Shown here piece after piece: positions 44,213 through 60,963 of a stretch of DNA of 64,000 nt. Where the stretch lies: assembly GCA_019721035.1 (NCBI GenBank), contig JAHEAA010000004.1:62001-126000 (forward strand). Direction: 5' to 3'. Both the position numbers and the translations under genes were made by a program. Below the pieces are notes generated by a model, which ran no database searches, was not told the origin of the DNA, and worked only from the letters and a program-made list of their open reading frames with translations. Each line of letters starts with the position of its first letter. Positions within the stretch are counted from its first letter, which is position 1. This DNA is from Candidatus Sysuiplasma acidicola (lineage in GTDB: Archaea > Thermoplasmatota > Thermoplasmata > Sysuiplasmatales > Sysuiplasmataceae).

Positions 44213-44497
44213 TCAGAAGGAGATGAAACAGTCTGCATGCGCCATGAGGCCTGAAAGGCCGTTTCTTCCGATTCGTTCTGCGTCACGCCGCAGCGGCAGC
44301 TGTTCCGTGGAATCCTCGACACATAGCGTGAACACCGCTCCGAGCCGATGGAGGTCATCCGTCAGTCTCTTCATGCAGAATATGGCGGCGCCTTCCAGGA
44401 CGATGGTTGTCTCAGCCCTTGCGCAGAGGCTCGCTATCAGGCCGGGAATATCGGAATCGTGCGCAATCCTGCGATGTATGTGTATGAGCACCTTCAT
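44213..44497 (-). CDS. DsrH/TusB-like sulfur-relay protein
   Basis: 94 residues; third of a DsrE-DsrF-DsrH-like trio. KVLIHIHRRIAHDSDIPGLIASL begins the Rossmann-like DsrE fold, and the size and place fit DsrH/TusB. There are Cys residues in SLCARAET, FCMKR and TLCVED, but none aligns clearly with the DsrH active-site cysteine. ATG 44497 overlaps the previous gene's stop. It is the last gene of the sHdr-type operon. Confidence 0.65.
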   Translation of the reverse strand: MKVLIHIHRRIAHDSDIPGLIASLCARAETTIVLEGAAIFCMKRLTDDLHRLGAVFTLCVEDSTEQLPLRRDAERIGRNGLSGLMAHADCFISF

Positions 44498-44832
44498 CAG
44501 AACACCAGCACCTTCGACGAAAGCATGATCGATGAGAGTTCATCGGACTCAATCAGTCTGTAATTTTCCGGAAGTGGCACTTCGGGGATCAGCCGCCTGA
44601 ACGAACCGGCGTGAACACGGATACGGATGGAGTCGGTGCCTTCCATTCTCTTCAGCGTCTCTCTCCCGAATTTTCCACCAGTCTGTTCCAGCAGTATGAA
44701 TGCGCCGTCGTCTATAAGGATGAAATCAACTTCATGATTCAATGCCGCAATCATGAATGAGACGCGCACCGCCTCCGTCAGATGTGCCGTCGACAGCGGC
44801 GGTCTCGTGAGCAACACTGTTACCTTCATCAT
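44497..44832 (-). CDS. DsrF/TusC-like sulfur-relay protein
   Basis: 111 residues of DsrE/F fold (KVTVLLTRPPLSTAHLTEAVR, NHEVDFILIDDGAFILLEQTG). It contains no cysteine at all, in line with a structural DsrF role in a DsrEFH hexamer rather than with sulfur carriage. It overlaps both neighbours by 1-4 bases, so the three subunits are translationally coupled. Confidence 0.75.
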   Translation of the reverse strand: MMKVTVLLTRPPLSTAHLTEAVRVSFMIAALNHEVDFILIDDGAFILLEQTGGKFGRETLKRMEGTDSIRIRVHAGSFRRLIPEVPLPENYRLIESDELSSIMLSSKVLVF

Positions 44833-45173
44833 TCCTCCGCCGTGTAGCTGAATATTGCGTCCGCCGTCTCAATCTCTTCGACAAGATCCTCGAGCCCGCC
44901 CATTTTTGCTTTCTCTATGAGCGTGCTCACACCCCTCATTGCAGAGCATGTCGAACAGCAGATTATGTTCACACCGCCGAGTCCGGCAAAACCTGCAACC
45001 ACCTCGGCCGCCCCTTTGCGGCTCAGCGGCATCGACGCGTTGTAGGTGCCGTCGCCAAGCAGGAAAACCGAGACCGTGTGCCCTTCCCCTGAAAGCGCGG
45101 CAGCCTTTTCCAGCACATATTCGGCCTCCCTGTGCTGAACCGGAGACGAGAAGAGAATGAAGAGGCAGCGCAC
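44829..45173 (-). CDS. dsrE: DsrE/TusD-like sulfurtransferase subunit
   Basis: 114 residues from GTG 45173, preceded by GGAGGAG. The fold start RCLFILFSSPVQHREAEYVLEKA and FLLGDGTYNA are typical. The active-site segment is ICCSTCSAMRG with Cys72, Cys73 and Cys76; the Cys before Arg-Gly corresponds to the persulfide-carrying cysteine of DsrE. It probably accepts sulfane sulfur from TusA or hands it on to it. Part of the sHdr-associated operon. Confidence 0.82.
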   Translation of the reverse strand: MRCLFILFSSPVQHREAEYVLEKAAALSGEGHTVSVFLLGDGTYNASMPLSRKGAAEVVAGFAGLGGVNIICCSTCSAMRGVSTLIEKAKMGGLEDLVEEIETADAIFSYTAEE

Positions 45174-45177
45174 GATG

Positions 45178-45375
45178 CTACTCCTCCACAGCGGACCAGC
45201 CGGACATCGTGCACACATATCTGCTGCCCTCTATTTCCACGATGCCGCCCTTGTCCACCTCTCCCTCAAAGAAAAGGCTGTTCAGCAGTTCCAGGTGTTC
45301 GGACGGAATGCCTTCCGTCCGTCCTCCTGTGAAGAACGGATCGCCTATCCTCGCAATGACCCTCACCCTGATCAT
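45178..45375 (-). CDS. Unknown 65-residue protein in the sulfur operon
   Basis: Begins at ATG 45375, immediately after the Mrp stop (TGAATG), and ends 5 bases before dsrE, so it is surely cotranscribed. Sequence is MIRVRVIARIGDPFFTGGRT, then a helix and a strand-rich end IVEIEGSRYVCTMSGWSAVEE with one Cys. Small, beta-rich and acidic. I recognise no family. The place between a P-loop ATPase and DsrE suggests an assembly or sulfur-relay accessory, without further proof. Confidence 0.7.
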   Translation of the reverse strand: MIRVRVIARIGDPFFTGGRTEGIPSEHLELLNSLFFEGEVDKGGIVEIEGSRYVCTMSGWSAVEE

Positions 45376-46464
45376 TCACATCTTCCTCTGTCTCTCTGCC
45401 TGCGCATTCTGCAGCATGGCAAATCGCATCCTTCTGATTGTTTTGAACAGTTCGGTGTTGCTGTAAAGCTCTATTTCTCCTCTGTCGGAGAGTCCGCTGA
45501 CGGCCGGGTCGAGCGGAATCGTCCCTATATATGGAACGTCAAGCTCCGACGCTGCCTTCTCCCCTCCTTCCCTTCCGAAGACATTGACTCTGGATCCGTC
45601 AGGAAGGCGGAGGAATGCCATGTTTTCAATCACGCCAGTGACTGGCACATGCATCTCCCTGGCCATAATTACTGCCCTCGCGACAACGGACCGTGCCACC
45701 TCCATCGGACTCGTGACGAAAAGGACGCCGTCAGGCGTGAGCGACTGGAAAACAGTCATCGGCGCATCGGATGTTCCAGGCGGAAGGTCTACTATCAGGT
45801 AGTGGAGCTTTCCCCAGGCCGTTTCGGAGAACAGCCCCCTTATTGCGCTGTTTATGAGCGGCCCCCTCCAGACAAGCGGTGTCTTGAACCTGTCCATGAT
45901 CAGGTCCACTGTCATGATCTTTACGCCTGTCTGCGAACTGAGCGGCACTATTTTTCCGTCCTTGCCAAGTTCAGGCAGGCTGTTCAGACCGAACATTCTG
46001 GAAATACACGGTCCGGTGATATCGGCGTCTAGTATGCCTGTCCTGAATCCAAGCATGGAGAGGTGTGTGGCCAGAACGGCAGTCACGAAGCTCTTGCCCA
46101 CGCCGCCCTTTCCCGATGCGACTGCGATTATGTTCGAAATGTCTCCGCGCGGAAGCGCGTCTATGCCTGTTCTCTCGTGCGTCCCGCTATCGACGATCGG
46201 GAGTTCAACGCTTCGCCGGGTCGCCGCGCCGGTGTCCGCTGTTTCGGAAAATTCGACGACAGCTCTGTATCCCTCCCCGGCAAGAACGGCCTCGATGTCC
46301 GACTTTATGACGTTGCTCAGCGGATACGCGTGCGGCACGGACACTCTCACCTTCACTTCCGTCCCCTCTACGTCGACGGCAGAGAGCATTCCCTTTTCGC
46401 TCAGGGAATATTTCTCTTCGGGGTGCGGAACTGTTGAGAGCAGTTCAATCGGTTCCCGAGTCAA
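45376..46464 (-). CDS. mrp: Mrp/NBP35-family P-loop ATPase without CxxC
   Basis: 362 residues. An N-terminal MIP18-like region (about 1-75) precedes the deviant Walker A VASGKGGVGKSF (118-125), ADITGPCISRMFGLN and LIVDLPPGTSDAPMTVFQ. In usual Mrp/ApbC iron-sulfur carriers a Cys-x-x-Cys follows the IENM motif; here the same place reads VIENMAFLRLPDGSRVNVFG with no cysteine, and the whole protein has only one or two Cys. So scaffold-type Fe-S transfer is doubtful, and a different chaperone role in the sHdr system is suggested. 6 bp after the lipoate ligase gene. Confidence 0.88.
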   Translation of the reverse strand: MTREPIELLSTVPHPEEKYSLSEKGMLSAVDVEGTEVKVRVSVPHAYPLSNVIKSDIEAVLAGEGYRAVVEFSETADTGAATRRSVELPIVDSGTHERTGIDALPRGDISNIIAVASGKGGVGKSFVTAVLATHLSMLGFRTGILDADITGPCISRMFGLNSLPELGKDGKIVPLSSQTGVKIMTVDLIMDRFKTPLVWRGPLINSAIRGLFSETAWGKLHYLIVDLPPGTSDAPMTVFQSLTPDGVLFVTSPMEVARSVVARAVIMAREMHVPVTGVIENMAFLRLPDGSRVNVFGREGGEKAASELDVPYIGTIPLDPAVSGLSDRGEIELYSNTELFKTIRRMRFAMLQNAQAERQRKM

Positions 46465-46470
46465 CGGCTC

Positions 46471-47595
46471 TCATCCCCCGCCGCTGTTTGTGATTGAAGG
46501 ATGTCTTGCGGCCTCGGTTATGGCGTTTGCAAAATCATCAGGCATGGCGCCGAGGATCCTGACGCCGTCCTCTGTCATAACGGATGCAACCTTTTCAGAT
46601 ATGGTTTTCGCGTTCAGAGGCAGGCCCTCCAGAGCTCTTTCGAGCCTGTCGAGCTTCCAGGTTACCGGCACTGTGAAAAAATCGCCCGAAAGCACGATGC
46701 TCCCAATCGTTCCGCGGTCCACCAGCAGCGTGACACGGATCAGTTTCTGCGCCTTGTAGTCGTACTTGCAGAGAAACACTCCTTCCCTGATCTTCACTAT
46801 GCGGCGATCGGCGAAAAGTTCACTCCTGCTGCTGTCCCTTGAGAACACCCATTCACTTCCCTTCCTCTCCTCCACAAGCACGGAGAGACGGTACGCTTCA
46901 TCCTCCGTAACGGACGAACTGTTTATCTGTCCACCGTACAGCCTTCCGAACTCGCCGGTGAGCGCCGCATCGATTTCCTCCCTGCTCACCTGTCTTCCCA
47001 GCAGCGCTCTGACGGACGTCAGGTGCTCTTCCATCGTCCGAGCCATCTTGTCCCTGAATTTTTCATCAGGCACTCTCAGTATGCCTGACATCATCTCCAG
47101 ATTCAGATCCAGCAGTATGTCTCCGGTGAGGACTCTCGCGCTGTCGATATCCACTGCCCCGTTTGCGCTGATCTTGCGTCCGTCCACCGCAAGGTCATTC
47201 AATCCGGATCTGACTGTATGTATCCCTATCCGCTGAAGTGCTGAGGAGACGGGTTCGAGCATCCTTCCGTAGTACTCCTGTATAGTTCCTCCCGTTGTGG
47301 GCGAACCGAGACTGCTGATCAGGAAGTAATCCTCTTCCCACGGTCCGTCCGCTATCGCGCCTCCTCCGATCACACGGCGTACCACCGGTATGGAATTCCT
47401 CGTGCAGTAGTCCATGTCAATCTCCTGCAGCGCCTCCTGGTGGAAGCCGACGTTTGCGAACGGTTTCTCTGCATGACACAGGACCAGCGTGTCTCCGCGC
47501 TTTCCTTCGCTCACCGACCCGGCGAGGACGACGAACATGTTAGTCATCACGTAACCGTCAACCGGACCGAGGTTGATAACGTCCAGTCCGGTCAT
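46471..47595 (-). CDS. Lipoate-protein ligase, sLpl(AB)-type
   Basis: 374 residues from ATG 47595, with GAGGGG before it. The catalytic part has PVVRRVIGGGAIADGP and the lipoyl-AMP lysine Lys141 in GRKISANGA. After it a C-terminal domain of about 110 residues resembles the LplB accessory domain, so both parts are fused. Such ligases are a mark of sHdr clusters, where they load lipoate on LbpA rather than on dehydrogenase E2 proteins. The LipS1/LipS2 synthases that insert sulfur are not in the window. Confidence 0.88.
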   Translation of the reverse strand: MTGLDVINLGPVDGYVMTNMFVVLAGSVSEGKRGDTLVLCHAEKPFANVGFHQEALQEIDMDYCTRNSIPVVRRVIGGGAIADGPWEEDYFLISSLGSPTTGGTIQEYYGRMLEPVSSALQRIGIHTVRSGLNDLAVDGRKISANGAVDIDSARVLTGDILLDLNLEMMSGILRVPDEKFRDKMARTMEEHLTSVRALLGRQVSREEIDAALTGEFGRLYGGQINSSSVTEDEAYRLSVLVEERKGSEWVFSRDSSRSELFADRRIVKIREGVFLCKYDYKAQKLIRVTLLVDRGTIGSIVLSGDFFTVPVTWKLDRLERALEGLPLNAKTISEKVASVMTEDGVRILGAMPDDFANAITEAARHPSITNSGGG

Positions 47596-47603
47596 TTTTC
47601 CCC

Positions 47604-47987
47604 TCAGAAACTCAGAACGGTGTCGGAATCCAGCGACAGGTCCACGAGCGTGGAAGAGCCGACAACCTTCACGCCGCTTATGACATCCTTCGGATCTATG
47701 TCGCAAAGGCTCCTCAGGCTCTCCTCGCAGGCGTAGAACTTCACGCCGCCTTCCAGTGCCATGTTGATGAACTGCATCAGCGTTCCGCCCTTCTTCAGCT
47801 TTACCTGCTCCGCAAAACCGGACTTAAGCAGCTTTGGCGCATGCATCAGAAAATACATTGATGTATCGACTTCCATCGCCGCCGACAGCGCTGCCGTGTA
47901 GAATGGTGCGTACGTTTTCTCCGGATCTTCGGGTCCGGTCGTCATGACAATCAGTAATTTTTTTCCCTCGACATCCGCCACTTGCAT
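47604..47987 (-). CDS. DsrE3-like sulfur-carrier protein
   Basis: 127 residues of DsrE fold: KKLLIVMTTGPEDPEKTYAPFYTAA, then MYFLMHAPKLLKSG. Two cysteines, Cys87 and Cys95 in KFYACEESLRSLC, stand at the sulfur-binding loop. sHdr gene clusters commonly include DsrE3 proteins that work with TusA and rhodanese. It lies between the lipoate-binding protein and the ligase, coupled to both. Confidence 0.85.
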   Translation of the reverse strand: MQVADVEGKKLLIVMTTGPEDPEKTYAPFYTAALSAAMEVDTSMYFLMHAPKLLKSGFAEQVKLKKGGTLMQFINMALEGGVKFYACEESLRSLCDIDPKDVISGVKVVGSSTLVDLSLDSDTVLSF

Positions 47988-47991
47988 CACC

Positions 47992-48441
47992 TCACTGCTG
48001 GCATCTTATGCATTTTATGTTGTCCCTGCTGATGAACTCCCTGTACCGCGACATCGCGCTCTCCCCCGTGAGCAGCGCCGCCTTCTCCTCCGGACTGGAC
48101 ACTTTCACACGCACAATCCAGCCCCTGCCGTACGGATCGTTGTTGATCAGCTCCGGGTGCGAAACAAGCTCCTCGTTCGGTTTCACAACTACGCCAGTCA
48201 GCGGCGCAAGCACCGCTCCGGCCCATTTACCGCTTTCGATTGTAGCGAGCGGTTTCCCCCTTGGTCTGGCTGTCCCCTCGCCCTTGACTCTGATGACGAC
48301 AATCTTGCCCGCCCTCGTCTGCGCCGGGTCAGTCAGCCCTATCACGGCCTCATCGCCCTCAAACCTCACCCACGACATCTGATTTCCTTCCAGGAAATAG
48401 AAAAGATCGTCAGGCAGCTCGCATCCGTTAATCATTGCCAT
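47992..48441 (-). CDS. lbpA: Lipoate-binding protein LbpA (GcvH-like)
   Basis: 149 residues, the swinging-arm carrier of the sHdr pathway. Lipoylation lysine Lys72 in LATIESGKWAGAVLAPLTG; GRGWIVRVKV ends the lipoyl fold, as in glycine-cleavage H protein. The C-terminus has an added tail with a Cys-x-x-Cys (CIRCQQ), unusual for GcvH. No glycine-cleavage genes are nearby, while Hdr and lipoate ligase are, which separates it from true GcvH. GGAGG eight bases before ATG 48441. Confidence 0.92.
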   Translation of the reverse strand: MAMINGCELPDDLFYFLEGNQMSWVRFEGDEAVIGLTDPAQTRAGKIVVIRVKGEGTARPRGKPLATIESGKWAGAVLAPLTGVVVKPNEELVSHPELINNDPYGRGWIVRVKVSSPEEKAALLTGESAMSRYREFISRDNIKCIRCQQ

Positions 48442-48459: not shown

Positions 48460-49371
48460 CTAGAACCCTTTCGAGTGCAAAATCTTTCCTGCATCGGAGA
48501 AATTGTCCGCGAGCCGCGCGTCCCGCCTGCTGTGACCGAACGCCAGCGCCATCAGCTGCGTGAAGTACACGACCGGCCTTACAATCTCTCTGCCGTACTG
48601 TTTTTCGATCATAGGTATGTTCGCCTCTATGTTCATCTGCCCGAGCGGGCACATCGTCACGACGAAGTCAGCATTCAGTCTTGCAGCCTCGTTAAGTATC
48701 GACGCACTGAATCCGACGGAGACCTCGCGATCCGCAATTGCATGTCCCCCGCCGCAGCAGACAGTCTTCAGCGGATAATCGACCGTTTCCGCTCCAATCG
48801 CCTCCATGAGATCATCCATGAAGTGCGGATGCTCCGGATTGTCCCTTTCGCCGGAACCGGCGCCGGTGTAAATCTTCGGCCTCGTGTAGAGGCAGCCGTA
48901 ATAGCAGGCGACCCTGAGTCCTTTCAGCGGTTTCCTGACTCTTTTCCTCACCGCATCGAGTCCCGCCTGCTGGTAGATGACCTCTATTATGTGTTTTACC
49001 TCCACATCTCCCTCGTATGAAGGTGCCCCCGCCTTGTTCAGATACTCGTTCATTCTGTTCTTTGTGGCCGCGTCCTCGGTTATTGCCTTGTTCGCTCTTC
49101 CAAGCGAGAAGACGCATCCGTTGCAGGGCGCCACAACCGCCTTCGAGCCCATCTCCTTCGCGAGTGCGAGATTCCTCCCGGGCAGGAAGACGGACAGGTC
49201 ATAGCTCACTGTCTTCACTTCCGTTGCGCCGCAGCAGTTGTAGTCCACAATCTCGTCCATCACTATGCCCAGGTCCCTGCTCACCAGCTCGGAACTCTTC
49301 CTGTAGGCCTTCCCGAGACCGTCCAGCGAACAGCCCGGATAAAATGCCAGCCCGCCTTCATCGTAACTCAT
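48460..49371 (-). CDS. hdrB: sHdrB2: heterodisulfide reductase B-like subunit with two CCG domains
   Basis: 303 residues from ATG 49371. Two cysteine-rich CCG units are seen: FYPGCSL with YNCCGATEV and APCNGC, then ACYYGCLYTRP with VCCGGGHA and MCPLG. In HdrB these bind non-cubane [4Fe-4S] clusters that split a disulfide. In sHdr the substrate is thought to be LbpA-bound sulfur. Start overlaps the end of hdrC2 by 14 bp. Numbering B2 is by gene order. Confidence 0.9.
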   Translation of the reverse strand: MSYDEGGLAFYPGCSLDGLGKAYRKSSELVSRDLGIVMDEIVDYNCCGATEVKTVSYDLSVFLPGRNLALAKEMGSKAVVAPCNGCVFSLGRANKAITEDAATKNRMNEYLNKAGAPSYEGDVEVKHIIEVIYQQAGLDAVRKRVRKPLKGLRVACYYGCLYTRPKIYTGAGSGERDNPEHPHFMDDLMEAIGAETVDYPLKTVCCGGGHAIADREVSVGFSASILNEAARLNADFVVTMCPLGQMNIEANIPMIEKQYGREIVRPVVYFTQLMALAFGHSRRDARLADNFSDAGKILHSKGF

Positions 49372-50059
49372 AACCATCTTTCTCCAGTATCTCTTCTGCA
49401 ACTTTCCTTACTTTCTTCCATCCCTTCGTTCTGTGTCTGAACGGACCTGTTCTCAGTCTCCCGGTCCTGAGCATATTCATGCCCATCTTCATCATGTACG
49501 ATGCGTCGAACTCCTTCATTTCCTCGTCCCTGATGTAATTCCTCAGCAGCATGATCTCGTCTAGTATGCCCGTTTTGAGCACATTGCCGACATACTCGTC
49601 ATCCCATCTGCTTGCGGGCGTCTCCTGCATCCAGCCCTTCTTTCTCATGTAGCCGTCGATGGCATGAATGACCTCCTCCACTCTCACGTCCTTCGGGCAC
49701 CGTTCGACGCACTTGTTGCAAGCCAGGCATCGCCAGATGACATCCTTGTACTTCTTCAGCTCTTCCTCGTCGCCTATCTTTGCGAGATAGATGAAATATC
49801 TGGGGTTGAATTCCCGCAGACCGAAATCGGTATGCATGCAGCAGCCCGATGTGCACGTTCCGCACTGCCAGCATCTGTTTATCGTTCTGCCTTCCGGCGT
49901 CGAAGCTATTTCGTCCACCATGGCAGGCTGATACTGTGACAGAATCCTCTGCTGTATGAATATGTTCCACTGGCCCGAAACATCCCTCCCTTCTAGCTCT
50001 GCGCTGTCCTTCTGCAGGATCTTCTGCTTCTCAATGAGATGTTTCTCATGGATTGGCAC
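49358..50059 (-). CDS. hdrC: sHdrC2: HdrC-like iron-sulfur subunit
   Basis: 233 residues. Two [4Fe-4S] motifs: Cys63/66/69/73 in CWQCGTCTSGC and Cys111/114/117/121 in CLACNKCVERCP. It passes electrons between HdrA and HdrB. GTG 50059 overlaps the end of the hyp gene by 14 bp. Together with sHdrB2 it forms the second C-B pair of the operon. Confidence 0.92.
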   Translation of the reverse strand: MPIHEKHLIEKQKILQKDSAELEGRDVSGQWNIFIQQRILSQYQPAMVDEIASTPEGRTINRCWQCGTCTSGCCMHTDFGLREFNPRYFIYLAKIGDEEELKKYKDVIWRCLACNKCVERCPKDVRVEEVIHAIDGYMRKKGWMQETPASRWDDEYVGNVLKTGILDEIMLLRNYIRDEEMKEFDASYMMKMGMNMLRTGRLRTGPFRHRTKGWKKVRKVAEEILEKDGYELR

Positions 50060-50756
50060 GGTGTATCCTCCTGATGCCGAGTATCATTGTGGAAATGACG
50101 CCGTGGTTGGGGAAGAGCGCTTCCATGCCGCCCGCATTCATCGAATTGTCCTTTGCACCAATCACGTCCTGCGAATAGTACAGCGCACTCATCAGATCTA
50201 TGGGTATGAAATCCTTGAATCTGTAACCGTGCACGGCAAGGGATGCGGCAATGCTCTTCATCACCTTCTGGACCTGTTCAAAACTGATGGGCCTTTTTTC
50301 GGCGGCAATAGCTTCTCTCAGCGCGCCGGTGCCGTTTGACGGATTCCACACCCATCTGGTCGCGAGCCCGTACCTGGCGGGATATGAAAAGTGTATCATC
50401 TCATATGCCAGGTCCATGAGCACTTCGGGCGGACCTCCTTTGAGCGACATGAAAAGCGATATGCAGCGCTCCGGATCAGTGTCAGAGGATGATAGCGAAT
50501 CTATGGCACTGTCTATCTCCTCAGCTGTGTTGCCTGAGAGAATGGAATCGCAGTGTCTCCTCGCCGTAAAGCACAGTCTGATGAAATCCCTCCTTCCCTG
50601 TTCGGTCCTCTCCCGCTCTGAGACGTATTCCCGGATGACGGCCGACTTGAGTCTTAGCCTTTCAATATAGGCGGACAGCTCCACTTCCCAGTTCTGGCCG
50701 ATAGTTGCATCCGCAATTTCCCGCAGACGGTAACTGTTCAGCATAAGCTCAGGCAT
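50046..50756 (-). CDS. sHyp: conserved protein of the sHdr cluster
   Basis: 236 residues, soluble, helical, no metal motifs. It lies between hdrA and the second hdrC, exactly where the conserved hypothetical gene (hyp) of bacterial and archaeal sHdr clusters stands, and is of matching length; identity is by position and general look. LMSLKGGPPEVLMDLAYEMIHFSYPARYG is a distinctive central stretch. Probably a structural subunit. Confidence 0.82.
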   Translation of the reverse strand: MPELMLNSYRLREIADATIGQNWEVELSAYIERLRLKSAVIREYVSERERTEQGRRDFIRLCFTARRHCDSILSGNTAEEIDSAIDSLSSSDTDPERCISLFMSLKGGPPEVLMDLAYEMIHFSYPARYGLATRWVWNPSNGTGALREAIAAEKRPISFEQVQKVMKSIAASLAVHGYRFKDFIPIDLMSALYYSQDVIGAKDNSMNAGGMEALFPNHGVISTMILGIRRIHRANP

Positions 50757-51855
50757 TTACCTTCATCGACCTGTCGCTTGTTCTCTTTGATTTCGATTCT
50801 TTTGTTCCGGCGCGCTTCCTGACGTAGTTGAAAGCCTTCATGGCGGCTGCCGACCCTTCGGTTATTGCATCGGGTATGGCCTTCGGGCCCGTCGCAGTTC
50901 CTGCGACAAACACATTCTCCACCGTCGTGTGGACAGGCAGGCTGTCGGCCTCGAGCGGCTTGACGAATCCGTGCTCCTCCATTTCCAGGCCAAGGAGTTT
51001 TGCCATCTCGACCGTTCCCTGGCTTGCCTCCATGCCTGTGGTCAGGACGAGCATGTCGAACGGCACCTCGCTCGGCCGCTGTAGTATAGTGTCCTCGGCC
51101 ATTGCGATCAGGTTTCCTTCATCCCCCTTGCTGATAGCACCTATTCTTCCGCGTATGAATTTGACGTTCAGATCCTCCATCGCCTTCCAGTACAGCTGAT
51201 CTTCCCAGAAGCCGTATGTCCTTATGTCCATGTAATAGATGTAGGTGTCAATCTCCGGATGTTTTTTCTTCACTTCCATCGCCTGTTTGATGGACACCGC
51301 GCAACCCAGCCTGCAGCAGTAGAACTTCCCAACCTGCCTGTCGCGCGAACCAACGCACAGAAGCCAGCCTATGCGCTCAGGCATTTTGCCGTTCGACGGT
51401 CGGACGAGATTGTCATCGGACAGCATCTTTTCAAAATCCTTGAAATCTATTACGTCCGGATAGATGCCATAGCCGTACTCGTACTTCTTGTGAGGGTCCC
51501 AGTGCTCGAAACCTGTTGCGAGAATCACGGCATCGAACACTTCCTCTTCCTTTCCGCCGTCCCCGGAAGTGAATGCAACCTTTGCCTGTCCATCGACATT
51601 GTTGATGCCCGAAACGATTGTATTGAGTTTCGTTGTGACCGTAGACGATTCAACCTGTTTAATCAGCGGGTCCAGCACCTCTTCCACCGGCTTGAGATCC
51701 GGCGCGATGAGGCTGTAGTGGAGTCGCTTTGGTGTACCGCCCAGGACAGACTCTTTTTCGACGAGAACAACCTCCGCACCCGCCCCGATAAGATCAATCG
51801 AAGCGCTCAGACCCGCTGGTCCCCCTCCTATCACGAGTATGCGTGGTGATGCCAG
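50749..51855 (-). CDS. hdrA: sHdrA: FAD-containing HdrA-like subunit, probable CTG start
   Basis: 368 residues from CTG 51855. The FAD-binding loop is RILVIGGGPAGLSA, and the flavin/Fe-S part KFYCCRLGCAVSIKQA holds the conserved cysteines. The only standard start, GTG 51834, would begin inside the first Rossmann strand (giving M-I-G-G-G), so an upstream start is needed. In the window between the in-frame TGA and that GTG only CTG 51855 and an ATT are options; GGTGAT before the CTG is a suitable ribosome site. sHdrA is the flavin hub feeding electrons, probably to NAD. Confidence 0.92.
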   Translation of the reverse strand: MASPRILVIGGGPAGLSASIDLIGAGAEVVLVEKESVLGGTPKRLHYSLIAPDLKPVEEVLDPLIKQVESSTVTTKLNTIVSGINNVDGQAKVAFTSGDGGKEEEVFDAVILATGFEHWDPHKKYEYGYGIYPDVIDFKDFEKMLSDDNLVRPSNGKMPERIGWLLCVGSRDRQVGKFYCCRLGCAVSIKQAMEVKKKHPEIDTYIYYMDIRTYGFWEDQLYWKAMEDLNVKFIRGRIGAISKGDEGNLIAMAEDTILQRPSEVPFDMLVLTTGMEASQGTVEMAKLLGLEMEEHGFVKPLEADSLPVHTTVENVFVAGTATGPKAIPDAITEGSAAAMKAFNYVRKRAGTKESKSKRTSDRSMKVNA

Positions 51856-51863
51856 TGAATCAC

Positions 51864-53135
51864 CTAACCTGCCTTGGTCTTCAATCCTTCAGGCAGCACC
51901 TGTCCCTTGTTTACGGCGAAATATTTTTCCATCTCTCTGTGCGGTGTATACAACTGCTCCACTTCTCCCCCGTTTTTAATCTGTTCCAGATACTTCATGA
52001 AATCATCCTTGTATGTTTTGTAGTCTATACCCATTTTTTCCATCAACTTCTCAGTGGGTGACGCATGCCAGTGCAGCTGCACGATCTTGTACGGGTGCGC
52101 TCCAGCGGCCAGCGCCGCGATCTGAACATCGGCCAGCACTGGAACCATAAACTCCATGCCGTGAACCTTGCCTATCCACTGACTCTTGTCAAGCGTCGTA
52201 ACGCAGCCGGTGTCCGTTGTGATGGCAACGTCCGAATGAGCTTCTTCGACCATCGGCTTTATTTTGCGGAGCGTCGCAAACGATCTGGTGAATTCCCTTT
52301 CCGTGAGAATGTGTCTGAAACCGAATCCGCAGCAGTCATACCAAGTGCTGTAATCGGCAACCTTCGCGCCGAGCGAAATCATGAGGGCCGTTGGCGGCGC
52401 AGGTCTCTGTCCGCCGTTGACGCTTTCATCATAAATCGCATCTTCCGGCACCATTTTGTAGTAGTGGCAGGGCTCATGCACTGTGGCCGTAACTTCCGAC
52501 ATATTGTACTTCGACATGGCCGCCATCCTGTCACGCATGACATGTACCCATTCACTGTAATGGACAATCTCTTCAGGGATCGTCAGCTCCTTCCCCATGT
52601 GGTGCATGATGTCCCTGACCTTGTCCCTTACTTCCTTGTTCTCAATAATGAGCTTCCGCATCTCCTTGTAATCGCCGTAGCTCGTGCCGCAGTGTATCAG
52701 AGGGAACGTGCCTGTCTCCCATGCTCTGTGCCAGTTCCTCACTGCGACGGCGGCGAGCGCCACCGGATTAGATGTGCCTGTTCCATGATAGTTCCACGCC
52801 GTGCACGAAGTCTGATGCGGTTCGTTCAGATATGTCGTCCCGAACTGGTTCATGAACCATAACAGTGAGGCGGGATACCCGGGTATGTTCCCGCACTGGC
52901 CGCAGGACTTGTGATGCCACAGGTGGTCCGTGGGAATCTTCTTTTCCCAGCCAAAAAGTGTTTTGACATTGACAGGCTTGTTCTTTGCCTCAATGGGTAT
53001 GACGATGATCTCTCCCTTGTCATGAAGTTTCCACATTTCCTCTCTGACGTCCATGACTTTCTTGTCAGAAACCGCCCTCTTCTCGGATCTGGCTTTCACG
53101 ACTTCCCTGATCTGGTCAGCGCTCAGCATCTTCAT
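51864..53135 (-). CDS. hdrB: sHdrB1: long HdrB-like subunit
   Basis: 423 residues with CCG-type cysteines: KSCGQCGNIPG, HEPCHYYKM, YDCCGFGFRH and DTGCVTT. It is longer than sHdrB2, with an N-terminal extension that includes a charged helix. First B subunit by gene order. It likely holds a non-cubane Fe-S cluster at the sulfur-handling active site. Stop is 8 bp before the presumed CTG start of hdrA. Confidence 0.9.
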   Translation of the reverse strand: MKMLSADQIREVVKARSEKRAVSDKKVMDVREEMWKLHDKGEIIVIPIEAKNKPVNVKTLFGWEKKIPTDHLWHHKSCGQCGNIPGYPASLLWFMNQFGTTYLNEPHQTSCTAWNYHGTGTSNPVALAAVAVRNWHRAWETGTFPLIHCGTSYGDYKEMRKLIIENKEVRDKVRDIMHHMGKELTIPEEIVHYSEWVHVMRDRMAAMSKYNMSEVTATVHEPCHYYKMVPEDAIYDESVNGGQRPAPPTALMISLGAKVADYSTWYDCCGFGFRHILTEREFTRSFATLRKIKPMVEEAHSDVAITTDTGCVTTLDKSQWIGKVHGMEFMVPVLADVQIAALAAGAHPYKIVQLHWHASPTEKLMEKMGIDYKTYKDDFMKYLEQIKNGGEVEQLYTPHREMEKYFAVNKGQVLPEGLKTKAG

Positions 53136-53139
53136 CTCA

Positions 53140-53925
53140 TCATTTCTCCCTGTGTCCGATGTCTTCTAAGCCGAATTTTTCCTTCATTTCTTCAAATTCA
53201 CCTTTCCAGTCTGAAATTATGTCAACAATCATTTCTACCAGGTCAGGGTCTAGCGATCTGAGCATATCGAGGACACCGGACTCTTCATAAATCTGGGCAA
53301 GCTCCAGTGCAGTCTGCATGGAAACTTCCCAGGACGAGTCTGTTACCTGAAGAACATCTATGGGTATAGCCTTCCTGAGCGTCACGAGGTCGCCTGCCTT
53401 GGATACTGCTTTCGGATCCCAGTCTATGAAGAAATCCGGCTGTATCATGTCGGGCGAAACCTGCGTACCGTGTGTCATGACCTTGAGAAGGCTTCTGCTT
53501 GCCGGCTTCAGTACCTCCTTTGCGCTCTCGAGTCCGTTCCTGACGGCCAGTTCTCTCATCACGCTTATTATGCCGGCAATATCGTTTCCGAACCTGCATC
53601 TCATGTTACACGTGTAGCACTGGCAGCACGCCCAGATTTTTTCCTGCATGGCGTCCAGTAGAACATCGGGGTCATCGGACATGGCTATCTGCAGCATTTC
53701 CCTCGGGCTGAAGTCGTAGAATCTTGCAGCCGGACATCCTGTAGTGCATTCGCCGCAATTCAGGCAACCCAGAACGAATTCCCTGTACCTGAAGTCTCCG
53801 CGCATTTCCGAAAATATTTTTCGCGCGAGTTCATGAGGCTGCTCTCCATGCTCCCTTGCCCCGGCTATAATCATCGATGGTGTCCGTTCATCCTTTCTCT
53901 GCGGAAGATTCTTCAATATCGACAT
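53140..53925 (-). CDS. hdrC: sHdrC1: HdrC-like iron-sulfur subunit, first gene of the operon
   Basis: 261 residues. Cluster one: Cys54/57/60/64 in CLNCGECTTGCP. Cluster two: Cys100/103/106/110 in ACCQCYTCNMRC. The C-terminal 120 residues are helical. ATG 53925 has GGAGG seven bases upstream and a leader of roughly 60 bases containing a hairpin. It leads the operon sHdrC1-B1-A-Hyp-C2-B2-lbpA-dsrE3-lpl-mrp-unknown-dsrEFH. Confidence 0.92.
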   Translation of the reverse strand: MSILKNLPQRKDERTPSMIIAGAREHGEQPHELARKIFSEMRGDFRYREFVLGCLNCGECTTGCPAARFYDFSPREMLQIAMSDDPDVLLDAMQEKIWACCQCYTCNMRCRFGNDIAGIISVMRELAVRNGLESAKEVLKPASRSLLKVMTHGTQVSPDMIQPDFFIDWDPKAVSKAGDLVTLRKAIPIDVLQVTDSSWEVSMQTALELAQIYEESGVLDMLRSLDPDLVEMIVDIISDWKGEFEEMKEKFGLEDIGHREK

Positions 53926-54248: not shown

Positions 54249-54488
54249 TCAATGCGCCCGCTTTATTTTCAGGCTGATGTAGTCCCCGCTCTCCTCTATG
54301 CTCATTATCTCGTGGCCCGTTCTCTTTGACCAGGCCTGAAGATCCGGCTTCGCGGCAGGATCGTTAGCCATGACGCATATCTCCTCCCCGATTCCAACCT
54401 GTTTAATCGCCTTGCTTGTCTCAAACACCGGAATTGGGCATTGCATTCCCCTGAAATCAAAAACCTTTGCTTCTTCCGCCATGTCCAT
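54249..54488 (-). CDS. tusA: TusA sulfur-carrier protein
   Basis: 79 residues. The catalytic CPxP motif is FRGMQCPIPVFETSKAI with Cys17. TusA carries persulfide sulfur between rhodaneses, DsrE proteins and the oxidising complex. ATG 54488 has GGAGG eight bases upstream. It stands upstream of the sHdr operon, same strand, and divergent from the DsrE2-like gene. Confidence 0.93.
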   Translation of the reverse strand: MDMAEEAKVFDFRGMQCPIPVFETSKAIKQVGIGEEICVMANDPAAKPDLQAWSKRTGHEIMSIEESGDYISLKIKRAH

Positions 54489-54609: not shown

Positions 54610-55050
54610 ATGCAGGAAACTGTGGAACAGTCGACTATGAAAAACAAGCTTGTGCTTGTGGTGAGCAAGGGTACGATGGATGCGGCCTATCCGGCGCTGA
54701 TACTGGCGACGACTGCGGCTGCGCAGGGAATGGAAGTGTACATGTACTTCACATTCGGCGGAATGAAGCTTCTTACGAAGGGGCAGGCCGAAACGCTGGA
54801 ACCTTCCAAGGACATCGGCATGACGGCGGAGCAATTGAAGGGGCTGATATCCAAGGGCGGAATGCCCTCAGTGGCGCAGATGCTGCAGATGGCAGCCGAA
54901 TCCGGGGTTCACATAAACGCATGCTCACCGACGATGAAGTTGTTCGGAACGACCAAGGAGAATCTGACTATTCCCGGTGCAGATGTTGTCGGAGCCGCAA
55001 CCTTCCTGGAATGGGCTTCAGACCCCTCGGCAATAACTCTTTTCATCTGA
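54610..55050 (+). CDS. DsrE2-like sulfur-trafficking protein
   Basis: 146 residues. Fold start NKLVLVVSKGTMDAAYPALIL with two hydrophobic stretches (25-40 and 43-55), and Cys105 in VHINACSPTMKLFG at the loop used for persulfide in DsrE2 proteins. It shares a divergent promoter region with tusA (ACTTATAATG at about 54567). First gene of a three-gene plus-strand cassette. Confidence 0.85.
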   Translation: MQETVEQSTMKNKLVLVVSKGTMDAAYPALILATTAAAQGMEVYMYFTFGGMKLLTKGQAETLEPSKDIGMTAEQLKGLISKGGMPSVAQMLQMAAESGVHINACSPTMKLFGTTKENLTIPGADVVGAATFLEWASDPSAITLFI

Positions 55051-55366: not shown

Positions 55367-55867
55367 GTGTTGGCAGAGAGTATAATCCGGCGGCTTGTAT
55401 ATGGGCGCCCGGTAAGCAGGATTCTAGTCGTAGGCGGCGTTAATCTCGATGCCAGTCCCATAATGCAATACCTGCTCATGGCAGCCTCAGCCGGAAAGGG
55501 GATGGTAATTGAGTCTGCGGGCCTTTCGGCCGTCGAAGGTATGCAGATGAGTACACGCGCATCGTCCTTCCTTTCAAATCGCGGCATCAGTGCAGCCGAA
55601 CGGTCAGGCTTCAGAAGCAGGAAACTGACCGACACCCTTGCCCGCGATTTCGAGCTGCTCCTTGTCACCAGCATGGCTGTGAAAGGTTTCCTGCTGTTCC
55701 TCTATCCGGACATGACGATATACACTTTCTCTGAATATGCGCTCATCGGCGCAGATGCCGGCGAGATGGCGGCAGCCGACGATGATGAATATGTCAGAAT
55801 GGGCAACGAGCTGGCGGAGATGGCCGTGCGGATAGTCGCACGAGCCGTCAAGAATACAACATTCTGA
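55367..55867 (+). CDS. Catalytically dead low-molecular-weight phosphatase-like protein
   Basis: 166 residues. The LMW tyrosine phosphatase/arsenate reductase fold is suggested by ILVVGGVNLDASPIMQYLL (P-loop region), VIESAGLSAVEGMQM and LLLVTSMAVKGFL. In the family the loop is V-C-x-G-N-x-C-R-S-P; here it is V22-G23-G24-V25-N26-L27-D28-A29-S30-P31, so both the nucleophilic Cys and the Arg are gone. It cannot act as phosphatase or arsenate reductase by the usual route and may bind an anion such as sulfite, AMP or thiosulfate. Start GTG 55367 follows the previous TGA directly. Confidence 0.7.
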   Translation: MLAESIIRRLVYGRPVSRILVVGGVNLDASPIMQYLLMAASAGKGMVIESAGLSAVEGMQMSTRASSFLSNRGISAAERSGFRSRKLTDTLARDFELLLVTSMAVKGFLLFLYPDMTIYTFSEYALIGADAGEMAAADDDEYVRMGNELAEMAVRIVARAVKNTTF

Positions 55868-55905: not shown

Positions 55906-56397
55906 TCAATTTTCTGGAACGCTGACTGGATGGCGAGGATCTTCCTTTATTGTGTCAAGAACCATGGACGGAACGACTTCCTTTATGCCGCGGATGGCGC
56001 CGACTTCCCTCAGCATTGCAGCGAAGTCATGTTTCGTCAGTGAACTTCCTAGCGCTATGATGTCATACAATCCGACTGTCTGATAGGTGTAGCATATCCC
56101 CTTTACTCCTGACACCCTGCGTCCAACTTCTTTCGGATCGGAACCGTTCTCAATCCTTATGTACAGTGCAGCACAGAGTACCGGTCCAGATTTTTCAGGA
56201 TCGACGATTACGGTGAAGCTCCTGATGAGCCCGCTTTTCACCATCCGTCCCACCCGCTCGCTCACGGTCGTGACGCTTACATCGAATTTCCTGGCAATGC
56301 GCCTGTATGAAGTGCGGGCGTTTGCCTGAAGTTCCTTGATTATTCCCACGTCAAGCATGTCCAGTTCGGCAAAGCCGTTGTCTGCTTTCCCCTGCAT
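55906..56397 (-). CDS. Lrp/AsnC-family transcription regulator
   Basis: 163 residues: N-terminal HTH (RTSYRRIARKFDVSVTTVSERVGRM) and C-terminal RAM ligand domain (VCAALYIRIENG to IALGSS). Lrp-type regulators in archaea sense amino acids or related effectors. It sits between the two sulfur operons and may control them. A TATA-like AATAATTAATATC is about 60 bases upstream. Confidence 0.88.
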   Translation of the reverse strand: MQGKADNGFAELDMLDVGIIKELQANARTSYRRIARKFDVSVTTVSERVGRMVKSGLIRSFTVIVDPEKSGPVLCAALYIRIENGSDPKEVGRRVSGVKGICYTYQTVGLYDIIALGSSLTKHDFAAMLREVGAIRGIKEVVPSMVLDTIKEDPRHPVSVPEN

Positions 56398-56667: not shown

Positions 56668-57441
56668 ATGGTTGCAGTAAACATATCTACACTGTTTCCG
56701 CCAGCGTATTTCAGACTTTTCGTCCTGATACTTGTCCTCGGCGCCGTCTTCGGCGTTCTTTACGACGTGTACGGACGGAAGAAGATAAAGGCATATGAAG
56801 AGGAGAGGAAGTGGAAGAGGAGTTTCGGAAGAACTCCCGTGGAGCACAACACTTCGCGCTTATCGATCATAATGCGTGTGCTGATCAGCAATGTGGGGCT
56901 TTCCGGTGAAATAGCTTCGTGCACCGAACCCGCCCTCGACAGACCACGCAGGGCTGCGCATCTTCTCCTGTTCTGGGGTTTCATAATCTCGGCGCTGTCC
57001 ATGCTGGGGAAGGCGTTTGTCTACCCTACGCTTAACGCATTTCCCCTTTCGAATCCGCTTGAAGCGGGAACGAATGCAGGCAATGCAATGCTACTCGCAG
57101 GAGGGCTGATTATGCTTTTCATGCGCGTGAACATCCGTTCCGAACGCGATTCGATGTTCGGTGCCGTGCGTGCGGACATGTTTCTCTTTTCGGTCATGCT
57201 TGCAGTCGTGTTCCAGTTCGTTCTGGAGTTGGCAGACATCAGCGGGTCGGTTGCAGCCACCGAAATTGCCCTCATCTTCTATCTGCCGATCACGGCATTT
57301 CCGTTTCTCTCGATGGCGTGGTCGAAATTCCCCCATATCATCTACAAACCGATGCATGCCATTTTCAGGGAAATCGATGAGGCAGAGGGGTATTCCCATC
57401 TGCCTTCGCCTTCAAAGGTAAGCTTCATCAGAAAGGATTGA
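56668..57441 (+). CDS. Apr-associated membrane electron-transfer protein (AprM/QmoC-like)
   Basis: 257 residues with five membrane helices (about 15-36, 92-113, 132-150, 168-188, 200-220). The layout resembles the NarI/HdrE/QmoC cytochrome b family; His in RRAAHLLLFWG and in KFPHIIYKPMHAIF could be haem ligands. It stands directly before aprBA, where sulfur oxidisers have AprM and sulfate reducers QmoABC. No QmoA or QmoB is present, which favours an AprM role: taking electrons from AprBA to the quinone pool. Leaderless start. Confidence 0.8.
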   Translation: MVAVNISTLFPPAYFRLFVLILVLGAVFGVLYDVYGRKKIKAYEEERKWKRSFGRTPVEHNTSRLSIIMRVLISNVGLSGEIASCTEPALDRPRRAAHLLLFWGFIISALSMLGKAFVYPTLNAFPLSNPLEAGTNAGNAMLLAGGLIMLFMRVNIRSERDSMFGAVRADMFLFSVMLAVVFQFVLELADISGSVAATEIALIFYLPITAFPFLSMAWSKFPHIIYKPMHAIFREIDEAEGYSHLPSPSKVSFIRKD

Positions 57442-57457
57442 GGAGTGGATACAGAAT

Positions 57458-57937
57458 ATGCCAACGTTTGTTTATATGACAATGTGCGACGGTTGCGGCA
57501 AATGCGTCGAATTGTGTCCAAGCGACATCATGCATATAGATCCGGTCAACAGGAGAGCATTTAATGTGGAGCCGGACATGTGCTGGGAATGCTATACGTG
57601 TGTCAAGTACTGTCCGGAGCACGCCATCGATGTCAGAGGTTATGCCGATTTCGCCCCGCTTGGCCACGGAGTCACAGTGCTCAGGGAAGCGGAAAAGGGT
57701 GCCGTTTCATGGAAAATCAAGTACAGGGACGGAAGGATTAAGGAGTTCACGTTCCCGATCCGGACAACCAGGTGGGGTACAATACCGTCCGCACGCTCCC
57801 TTCCTCCGCCTGCGGAAGATGCGTTACACTCACCTCTTCTTTCCCACGAACCGGAGTACCTGAAGGTGGAGAGCCTTCCAACGCTGAAGATCGCGGAACA
57901 GAGCCCCGTTGCAGCTCAAACCGGGAATAGGAAGTGA
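57458..57937 (+). CDS. aprB: Adenylylsulfate reductase beta subunit
   Basis: 159 residues. Two [4Fe-4S] clusters: Cys10/13/16/20 in CDGCGKCVELCP and Cys42/45/48/52 in CWECYTCVKYCP. The C-terminal tail that wraps the alpha subunit is present. It conducts electrons from AprA FAD to the membrane partner. Overlaps aprA by 4 bp. Confidence 0.95.
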   Translation: MPTFVYMTMCDGCGKCVELCPSDIMHIDPVNRRAFNVEPDMCWECYTCVKYCPEHAIDVRGYADFAPLGHGVTVLREAEKGAVSWKIKYRDGRIKEFTFPIRTTRWGTIPSARSLPPPAEDALHSPLLSHEPEYLKVESLPTLKIAEQSPVAAQTGNRK

Positions 57938-59790
57938 TGCTGTTGTCGCTCAGAAAAACGAACTCTGTAAAGCATGTTGACTGTGATATACTGATTGTGG
58001 GCGGCGGTTTCGCGGGATGCGGTGCGGCCTATGAAGCCGGTTACTGGGGCAGGGGTCTGAAAATCGTCATTGCGGAAAAGGCAAACATCGAGAGGAGCGG
58101 CGCGGTCGCGCACGGCCTGTCCGCAATCAACTGCTACATGGGCATGAGATGGGGCGAAAACAGGCCCGAAGACTTTGTGCGGTACGCGAGGGGCGATCTC
58201 ATGGGGCTCGTCAGGGAGGATCTGCTCTTCGACGTCGCAAGGCATGTCGACGCCACCGTGCATATGTTCGAGGAATGGGGCCTTCCGATGATGTACAACA
58301 AGGAAACTGGTCACTATCAGCGGGAGGGAAAATGGCAGATCATGATACACGGGGAATCTTACAAGCCGATTATAGCGGAGGCAGCACAGAAGTCAGTTGA
58401 TGCAGTTTACAACCGCGTCATGATAACCCATCTGCTGACAGATGCGCAGAATGCGAAACGCATCGCAGGCGCAATAGGCCTGGATGTTCGCGACGGAACA
58501 CTCTATGTTTTCAGGGCAAAGGCCGTAATCGTCGGTGCAGCCGGTGCTTCGCACATATACAGGCCCAGGTCCATCGGCGAGGGCGCCGGGCGGACGTGGT
58601 ATCCGCCATGGAATAACGGCTCCGCTTATGCTCTCCTGATGCAGGCCGGAGCGGAGATGATTCAGATGGAAAACAGGATCGTGGTGACGAGATTCAAAGA
58701 CGGCTACGGTCCGGTAGGCGCATGGTTCCTCATGCTGAAGTCCGTTGCCACAAACGCTTACGGCGAGGAGTACGAAAAGGCGCACATCGACAGCCTCAGA
58801 TCTTACGTGGGTTCAAAATATGCAGACGCCAAACCGATGCCGACCTGCCTGAGGAATCATCTCATGCTTGAGGAGATAAAGGCGGGAAAGGGTCCCATCT
58901 ACATTCACACGGAGCGCTCACTTGACACGCGCGAGAAGGAGGAGCTCGGCTGGGAAGATTTCCTGGACATGACGATCGGGCAGGCCGTGATGTGGGCGTC
59001 GCAGAACATAGATCCGAAAGAAGATCCTTCTGAGCTTACCATGTCGGAGCCATACGTCATGGGCTCTCATGCCGTGTGCGCCGGAGCATGGGTTAGCGGC
59101 CCGGAGGACTTCGCGCCCCCGGATTATAACTGGGGTTACAACCGTATGACGACGGTCGAGGGCCTGTTCGGCGCGGGCGACACTGTCGGAGGCAGCGCTC
59201 ATAAATTTTCTTCCGGCTCCTTCACAGAAGGAAGGCTCGCGGCAAAGGCCGCAGTCAGGTATGTCAGGGAACATGCGGATTTCAAACCGGAACTCAATGC
59301 GGCCTCGGTGGAGAGAATCAGGGAAGAGGTCTACCGCCCTCTCGAAAACTATGAAGTCGGAAGCCATGTGATCGTGAAAGGCAGCGTCTCACCGTTTTTC
59401 ATAACGCCCAAGCAGGGGCTGCAGCGGCTTGAGAAGATTATGGACGAATACTGCGGAGGCGTAAGTTCGTATTATTCTACCAATGAAAAGCTGCTGAACA
59501 AGGGACTCCATCTACTGCAGATGCTGAAGGAGGATGCAAACCATATCGGTGCCGAAGATCTGCATCAGCTGCAGAGGACCTGGGAGCTGAATCACAGGAT
59601 ATGGGTCGCTGAGGCTGTTGTCAGGCATACGCTTTTCAGGAAGGAGACCAGATGGCCCGGATACTACTACAGGGCAGACTTTCCGCACGTGGACGATGAG
59701 CAGTGGCATGTATTCGTCAATTCAAGATATGATCCTGCAACGGGCCAGTGGGAATTGAAGTCCATCCCTGTTCACCATATAGTGCCCTGA
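57934..59790 (+). CDS. aprA: Adenylylsulfate reductase alpha subunit
   Basis: 618 residues, FAD flavoprotein interconverting sulfite + AMP and adenosine 5'-phosphosulfate. FAD loop LIVGGGFAGCGAAYEAGYWG near residue 20-40, RSGAVAHGLSAINCYMG, ERSGA and TRFKDGYGPVGAWF follow the family, and GLFGAGDTVGGSAHKFSSGSFTEGR closes the FAD site. Length and order fit the complete enzyme. In the sHdr context the oxidative direction (sulfite to APS) is most likely. Confidence 0.96.
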   Translation: MMLLSLRKTNSVKHVDCDILIVGGGFAGCGAAYEAGYWGRGLKIVIAEKANIERSGAVAHGLSAINCYMGMRWGENRPEDFVRYARGDLMGLVREDLLFDVARHVDATVHMFEEWGLPMMYNKETGHYQREGKWQIMIHGESYKPIIAEAAQKSVDAVYNRVMITHLLTDAQNAKRIAGAIGLDVRDGTLYVFRAKAVIVGAAGASHIYRPRSIGEGAGRTWYPPWNNGSAYALLMQAGAEMIQMENRIVVTRFKDGYGPVGAWFLMLKSVATNAYGEEYEKAHIDSLRSYVGSKYADAKPMPTCLRNHLMLEEIKAGKGPIYIHTERSLDTREKEELGWEDFLDMTIGQAVMWASQNIDPKEDPSELTMSEPYVMGSHAVCAGAWVSGPEDFAPPDYNWGYNRMTTVEGLFGAGDTVGGSAHKFSSGSFTEGRLAAKAAVRYVREHADFKPELNAASVERIREEVYRPLENYEVGSHVIVKGSVSPFFITPKQGLQRLEKIMDEYCGGVSSYYSTNEKLLNKGLHLLQMLKEDANHIGAEDLHQLQRTWELNHRIWVAEAVVRHTLFRKETRWPGYYYRADFPHVDDEQWHVFVNSRYDPATGQWELKSIPVHHIVP

Positions 59791-59805
59791 GGTTAGGGTG
59801 AAAGC

Positions 59806-60963
59806 ATGATACCTGCTCCGTACGGCGGAAAACTCGTCAGCACTGTTATCGAAGAGGCGGTGGCCCGCAGGAGGATCGGGGAGGCGCACGATCTTCCATC
59901 AATAAGCCCGATCATAGATCAGGTGTATGATGCCGAGAAGATATGCTTCGGCGCGTACAGTCCGCTTGAAGGCTTCATGTCCGTGGAGGATTTCACGAGT
60001 GTACTGGAGCGGGGAAGGCTATCAAACGGCATGCCGTGGACAATGCCGGTGTTTCTGGCACCTTCGGGAAAACACGATGCGGCAGTAGTTGATGCAGCAC
60101 GCCGGGGCGATACACTCGCCATACTCGATGCATCTGGCGAACCCTTCGCACTGATTGCCGTGGATGAAAAATTCCCCCTCCAGAAGAGCGAAGTGGCCAG
60201 GAAGGTCTATGGCACTGCTGACGCCGCTCATCCGAATGTCGCTGACCTATCTCAGATGGGAGATGTCTGCATATCCGGGAGGGTCGAACTCCTCCGGAGA
60301 CTTCCACACACTGCATTCGAGTTCACGCCGGAAGAGACACGCTCCATTTTCAAACAGAAGGGATGGAAAAACGTTGCAGGCTACCAGGCACGGAATCCTC
60401 CTCACACGGCGCACGAATACATTCAGAGGGCAACGCTCGAAAGGGATGACATAGATGCGCTGTTCATCCAGCCTGTAATAGGCAAACTGAAGAAGGGAGA
60501 CTATCGCCCGGAAGTGATCATGGATGCTTATGAGGCGTTTGTTTCCAATTATTACCGCAGCGACCGTGTGCTGCTTGCCTCGCTCTCGATATCCATGCGC
60601 TATGCCGGTCCGAAAGCGGTGCTCTTCTACGCAATCGTCAGGCGCAACTACGGCTGCTCGCACTACATAGTGGGCAGGGATCAGGCCGGCGTAGGCAATT
60701 ACTACGACCCTTACGGCGGACACCGAATATTCGATGATTTCGACGTCGGCGTCATTCCGCTCAGGTATGAGGAGACATTCTACTGCAGGGCGTGCAATGG
60801 CATGGCGTCGAGAAAGATATGTCCTCACGGAAATGAATTTCATCAGAGCACCAGTCAGACCGGCATAAGAAAGACGCTGGCAGAAGGCAAGCCTCTGCCG
60901 ACCGAAATACTCAGGCCGGAGGTTGCAGAGGTGCTCAGAAGGGGCGATGTGATAAACGATTAG
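59806..60963 (+). CDS. sat: ATP sulfurylase (sulfate adenylyltransferase)
   Basis: 385 residues, homo-oligomer type. QARNPPHTAHEYIQR near residue 194 is the ATP/APS signature, and GRDQAGVGNYYDPYGG the second. A zinc-like CRACNGMASRKICPHG lies near the C-terminus. Here it is expected to work backwards, converting APS and pyrophosphate to sulfate and ATP (substrate-level phosphorylation). 16 bp after aprA. Confidence 0.96.
   Translation: MIPAPYGGKLVSTVIEEAVARRRIGEAHDLPSISPIIDQVYDAEKICFGAYSPLEGFMSVEDFTSVLERGRLSNGMPWTMPVFLAPSGKHDAAVVDAARRGDTLAILDASGEPFALIAVDEKFPLQKSEVARKVYGTADAAHPNVADLSQMGDVCISGRVELLRRLPHTAFEFTPEETRSIFKQKGWKNVAGYQARNPPHTAHEYIQRATLERDDIDALFIQPVIGKLKKGDYRPEVIMDAYEAFVSNYYRSDRVLLASLSISMRYAGPKAVLFYAIVRRNYGCSHYIVGRDQAGVGNYYDPYGGHRIFDDFDVGVIPLRYEETFYCRACNGMASRKICPHGNEFHQSTSQTGIRKTLAEGKPLPTEILRPEVAEVLRRGDVIND

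Follow-up and report, generated by a model that had tools for sequence, protein, structure and literature searches.

The locus analyzed here raises the question of what becomes of the sulfite that an archaeal sHdr system would release. The host belongs to “Candidatus Sysuiplasmatales,” reportedly an order of Thermoplasmata known from acid mine drainage and predicted to oxidize reduced sulfur compounds. In Sulfolobaceae, which share an archaeal sHdr with LbpA, TusA, and DsrE, the fate of sulfite has been called unknown, and sulfite export has been proposed (PMC11323534). Unlike in Sulfolobaceae, the sHdr genes in the window (the whole 64,000-nucleotide stretch of “Candidatus Sysuiplasma acidicola” DNA that was analyzed) adjoin an operon that appears to be dedicated to sulfite-to-sulfate conversion. 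We conclude that this aprMBA-sat operon quite probably encodes an oxidative, lineage I APS reductase module that acts downstream of sHdr and takes sulfite via APS to sulfate with formation of ATP.

The sequence-only reading had placed an aprM-like gene, aprB, aprA, and sat beside an sHdr island, and four forward-strand open reading frames bear this out. The first, aprM (56668..57441), encodes a stand-alone integral membrane protein of 257 amino acids. It is followed by aprB (57458..57937), for the APS reductase beta subunit with two [4Fe-4S] clusters (TIGR02060, PF12139); aprA (57934..59790), for the FAD-containing alpha subunit (TIGR02061, 1JNR, and trees); and sat (59806..60963), for ATP sulfurylase (PF01747 plus PF14306, PRK04149). 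NCBIfam cut-offs were exceeded by AprB (176 bits to TIGR02060; cut-off, 136), AprA (974 bits to TIGR02061; cut-off, 642), and Sat (420 bits to PRK04149; cut-off, 387), and AprA matched 1JNR with an E value of 2e-217. Based on the shared strand and intergenic gaps of 16, -4, and 15 bp, the four genes very probably form one operon. A divergent reverse-strand gene for an Lrp/AsnC-type protein (55906..56397; PF13412, PF13404), a candidate regulator, is kept beside the operon across the family (L038, L171, and L172). Between the window and a second genome of the family (G002), dN was 0.07 for both AprA and AprB, 0.17 for Sat, and 0.19 for AprM; synonymous sites were saturated, leaving only dN usable.

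The AprA active site is kept: residue mapping equates N66, W222, R253, R307, and H379 with N74, W234, R265, R317, and H398 of A. fulgidus, which bind APS and FAD (PMC2211403). In the alignment, AprB has cysteines 10, 13, 16, 20, 42, 45, 48, and 52 in the spacing of the lineage I type (numbering of PMC2211403) and retains Trp43. Compared with the Qmo-linked AprB of another Thermoplasmata genome, G157, it shows a 5-residue gap between Cys-B13 and Gly-B19, where the missing loop is the one assigned to Qmo docking (PMC2211403). The charged loop REAEKG, the proposed dock for AprM, is present. Sat carries the motifs QARNPPHTAHE, in which the pattern QxRNPxHxxHE is kept, and GRDQAGVG; it is of the archaeal type (GRDQAG), with 33 to 39% identity to the proteobacterial Sats compared.

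The adjoining sHdr island is complete and runs on the reverse strand in the order C1-B1-A-hyp-C2-B2-lbpA-dsrE-lpl. It comprises shdrC1 (53140..53925; HdrC models), shdrB1 (51864..53135; HdrB models, CCG domain), shdrA (50749..51834; HdrA models), hyp (50046..50756; recognized by position and conserved in the loci of f1 and of f9, a second Thermoplasmata family taken up below), shdrC2 (49358..50059; HdrC models), and shdrB2 (48460..49401; HdrB models). These are followed by lbpA (47992..48441; PF01597), for a lipoate-binding, GcvH-like protein with a candidate lipoyl lysine in IESGKW, by a DsrE-family gene (47604..47990; PF02635), and by an sLpl-like lipoate-protein ligase gene (46471..47706; PF21948, PF10437). 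Genes for an ApbC/Mrp-like Fe-S carrier (45376..46464; PF10609) and two DsrE-family proteins (44497..45218; PF02635) continue on the same strand, and at the other end lie genes for a TusA sulfur carrier (54249..54488, reverse strand; PF01206) and a DsrE2-type sulfurtransferase (54610..55050, forward strand; PF13686). The hdrC1B1A-hyp-C2B2 operon with lbpA and a lipoate ligase identifies the system as sHdr, and its gene order is that published for bacterial sHdr operons (PMC6382920). Such a system would oxidize sulfane sulfur to sulfite.

Two further forward-strand genes in this region encode proteins with no Pfam match. One, of 94 amino acids (55082-55366), is conserved next to TusA/DsrE2 in the sHdr loci of two families of Thermoplasmata (52 to 66% and 33 to 42% identity) and is a candidate for an unnamed sHdr accessory protein. 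The other, of 166 amino acids (55367-55867), is kept solely in the islands of this lineage (41 to 67%).

AprM has previously been said to resemble no known domain (PMC3779200). The window's protein, orthologous to proteobacterial AprM and encoded 16 bp upstream of aprBA, matched the QmoC model NF038018 across its membrane half alone (positions 185-356; E value, 2e-13). Its score of 50 bits against a required 300 and its lack of a fused, HdrC-like Fe-S domain separate it from QmoC proper, such as the QmoC of the apr-qmo cluster in G157 (390 bits). The QmoC membrane half was matched by the window's AprM and by all nine other AprM proteins, archaeal and proteobacterial (E values, 6e-4 to 3e-14), and the AprM profile aligned over its full length with the QmoC of G157. 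Eight residues are invariant in a 23-row AprM alignment, including H98 and H223, which sit in motifs common to QmoC. A sequence search of the PDB with AprM gave no match. The AlphaFold model (pLDDT, 83.6) had a weak best Foldseek match in the PDB to EtfD (E value, 0.03; probability, 1.00; TM-score, 0.48), a membrane-bound haem-b oxidoreductase delivering electrons to quinone. We conclude that AprM is likely a QmoC-like cytochrome b that lacks the Fe-S domain, its haem being putative. Its similarity to the QmoC membrane half and the two invariant histidines suggest that electrons from AprBA reach quinone via AprM, a concrete idea for how an oxidative APS reductase connects to the quinone pool.

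The G157 locus used in these comparisons (L153; G157:C4:68000-86000) has qmoAB-aprAB-sat-qmoC together, with dsrAB on the same contig, and looks like a full sulfate-reduction cluster.

The sequence-only reading had tied the oxidative direction to AprA grouping with oxidizers and not with reducers, and our phylogeny agrees with it. In a 43-row tree, AprA of the window's genus and of L038 fell within a clade of AprM-linked proteobacteria (Acidiferrobacteraceae, Hydrogenophilales, Rhodospirillaceae, and SAR11). Reducers were represented in this tree by three references, of which one had a long branch, and lineage II and crenarchaea by none. Separation from the AprA of A. fulgidus, of D. gigas, and of the Qmo-linked cluster in G157 had support of 100/100, and a grouping of the genus with those three reducers was rejected (p-AU, 0.013). 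The AprA clade, the loop-less AprB, the position of aprM upstream of aprBA, and the lack of qmo genes support, at the level of sequence, an assignment of the window's AprBA to Apr lineage I, as in sulfur-oxidizing bacteria. AprBA is reversible, however, and the direction is not fixed by its phylogeny. The sister of lineage I is a Thermoplasmata AprA clade of six genomes (G186, G223, G356, G354, G044, and G392; loci L127, L138, L135, L137, L010, and L140), all six with DsrAB; AprM was not found in these genomes, and no qmo genes occur within the stretches read. Thus, the clades of oxidizers have possible reducers close by. APS reductases of two or more kinds occur in Thermoplasmata, and sHdr goes with the window's kind.

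In the sister genus (G004 to G007), AprA comes from inside a proteobacterial subclade and lies in the same conserved island (L001, L002, and L006 in G004, G005, and G007), which implies lateral gene replacement. None of the AprA references was on a viral contig, and plasmids yielded just two matches, one in a Klebsiella record and the other a distant homologue from Ilyobacter. The former, a 21.8-kb “Klebsiella pneumoniae plasmid” from bile (L141; NZ_CP061967.1), has an aprA 53% identical to that of Desulfovibrio gigas and is probably a misassembly with sequence from an intestinal sulfate reducer.

The reversibility of these enzymes and the proximity of the DsrAB-linked sister clade would also accommodate the opposite course, in which Sat activates sulfate and AprBA then reduces it to sulfite in respiration or assimilation. 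Genome content argues against this. No NIR_SIR protein was found in the window's genome (1.97 Mb, 35 contigs, 95% complete) by a search that gave matches in 11 of 14 control genomes, and the genome therefore encodes neither DsrAB nor another siroheme sulfite reductase. DsrAB-type proteins were likewise absent from all eight family genomes; a single-ORF NIR_SIR protein occurred in G002 alone. QmoA and QmoB were not found in a genome search with an HdrA query, which detects both proteins of G157 at 32% identity; the sole HdrA-like protein recovered was sHdrA, which leaves no QmoA or QmoB. The absence of dsrAB and qmoAB, originally judged on the window alone, thus extends to the whole 95%-complete assembly, as does the presence of a single QmoC/AprM-like membrane protein, with one such match genome-wide. 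Dissimilatory sulfate reduction (Sat-AprBA-Qmo-Dsr) would involve both DsrAB and QmoAB, and the genome has neither. Without a sulfite reductase, reduction of sulfate to sulfite would be a dead end; among the simple arguments for oxidation, this one is the strongest. The missing Qmo loop in AprB, the presence of AprM, and the placement of AprA in the oxidizer clade point the same way, making a reductive role very unlikely.

A search for other sulfite-oxidizing enzymes gave a divided result. The genome has no molybdopterin (PF00384) Mo-bisPGD oxidoreductase and hence no SoeABC. COX1 is present in two copies. A source of the sulfane sulfur was looked for as well but not found: the genome has no DoxD, and SOR gave zero matches in this genome and in the controls alike. 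The genome does encode a cytoplasmic, 215-amino-acid SUOX-like protein with a sulfite-oxidase fold (L120; G000:C15:24490-24921), so AprBA-Sat may not be the sole sulfite-oxidizing route. This protein scored 129 bits against PF00174, is also present in G001, G002, G004, and G005, and matches the sulfite dehydrogenases 2XTS and 2CA3, resembling the catalytic domain. Given that Lutacidiplasmatales are believed to use such enzymes (PMC9287336), sulfite might be oxidized chiefly by the SUOX-like protein, with AprBA-Sat as a minor or detoxifying branch. We regard this as unlikely, though less so than the reductive course: the protein is a putative oxidizer, a short form without the dimerization domain, and is unlinked to the sulfur island, and proteobacteria often have apr alongside direct oxidation (PMC6382920).

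We therefore retain the oxidative AprBA-Sat route. In the proposed pathway, TusA, DsrE, and LbpA would bring sulfane sulfur to sHdr, which would free sulfite in the cytoplasm. Sulfite would add to the AprA FAD and react with AMP to give APS, and two electrons would pass from FAD via Trp43 of AprB and the two [4Fe-4S] clusters to AprM, and onward through the quinone pool to a haem-copper oxidase and oxygen. Sat would then convert APS and pyrophosphate to sulfate and ATP. For the oxidative, ATP-yielding sulfite-to-sulfate branch put forward in the sequence-only reading, the gene content, active sites, and AprA clade stood up; from these we infer the direction, the ATP yield, and activity. Haem binding and quinone reduction by AprM are likewise predicted features of the scheme, as is a physical hand-over of sulfite from sHdr to AprBA.

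The distribution of the genes bears on whether the two modules belong together. AprA was found in all eight family genomes searched; across 390 Thermoplasmatota genomes, 19 encoded it. The 10 genomes among these 390 that encode sHdrA (≥55% identity) all encode AprA (Fisher p, 5e-15, a value that ignores relatedness). The same island occurs in G001, G002, G004, and L038, and in the second family, f9 (L156 to L165), sHdr and AprBA are neighbors in a different gene order. Near proteobacterial apr loci, the stretches examined held no shdr operon, just scattered single carrier or ligase homologues, a pattern that would suit a chance neighborhood of apr-sat and sHdr with no common pathway. Such an accident is extremely improbable, however, considering that the two modules stay linked in at least four other genomes of the lineage, that the linkage recurs in f9 despite the different order, and that every sHdrA genome has AprA.

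AprM is absent genome-wide from the f9 genomes, and their AprB is two residues short in the loop proposed to dock AprM. AprM is therefore not indispensable to the pairing, and the electron acceptor of f9 AprBA must be another protein. We also considered selenocysteine at internal TGA codons of the f9 HdrA matches and rejected it, as the alignment showed these TGAs to be terminal stop codons. Separately, in a genome labeled Thaumarchaeota archaeon Centralia_MAG_53 (L040), homologues of HdrC1, LbpA, and DsrE lie no more than 10 kb from aprM-aprBA-sat, and the pairing may thus extend to a second archaeal phylum.

Close counterparts of each module are known. With sat-aprMBA of Allochromatium vinosum and other Apr lineage I bacteria, the window shares the aprM-aprB-aprA order, a linked Sat, an AprB without the Qmo-docking loop, and the AprA clade (PMC3779200, PMC2211403); it differs in its archaeal host, its archaeal-type Sat, and its sHdr neighbor in place of rDsr. 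QmoABC-linked APS reductases (A. fulgidus, D. gigas, and G157) have the AprBA chemistry in common with it, and their QmoC has a membrane half to which AprM is similar, but the window's system lacks QmoA/QmoB, an Fe-S domain on AprM, and DsrAB and belongs to another AprA clade. In Thioalkalivibrio, hdrC1B1A-hyp-C2B2 with lbpA occurs in one genome with aprBA/sat, in the same shdr gene order, with sHdr making sulfite and AprBA/Sat oxidizing it (PMC6382920). Those strains all carry soeABC, and many carry sorAB (PMC6382920), whereas SoeABC was not found in the window's genome, where, unlike in Thioalkalivibrio, the sHdr and AprBA-Sat modules form one island.

According to a study from 2018, apr had yet to be identified in acidophiles (PMC6289977). 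A Thermoplasmatales MAG from an acid pit lake has been reported with aprAB and dsrAB (PMC9326234), and aprAB plus dsrAB in hot-spring Thermoplasmata have been taken to indicate sulfate reduction (PMC11094006). The sequence-only reading considered the pairing undescribed for Thermoplasmata; the open-access papers found contain no description of an archaeon with sHdr plus AprBA/Sat. The combination is known from bacteria, and the window is a new archaeal case. On balance, we lean toward the view that two Thermoplasmata families have every step needed to take sulfane sulfur to sulfate and are the first archaeal sHdr organisms with ATP-yielding sulfite-oxidation genes inside the sulfur island; the window's family would use AprM, and f9, in which AprM and some of the AprB docking loop have been lost, would need a different acceptor. 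The apr-sat operon supplies a step that is without identified genes in the best-studied archaeal sulfur oxidizers, and through the window's own sulfite-to-sulfate module the fate of sulfite in archaeal sHdr organisms becomes directly testable.
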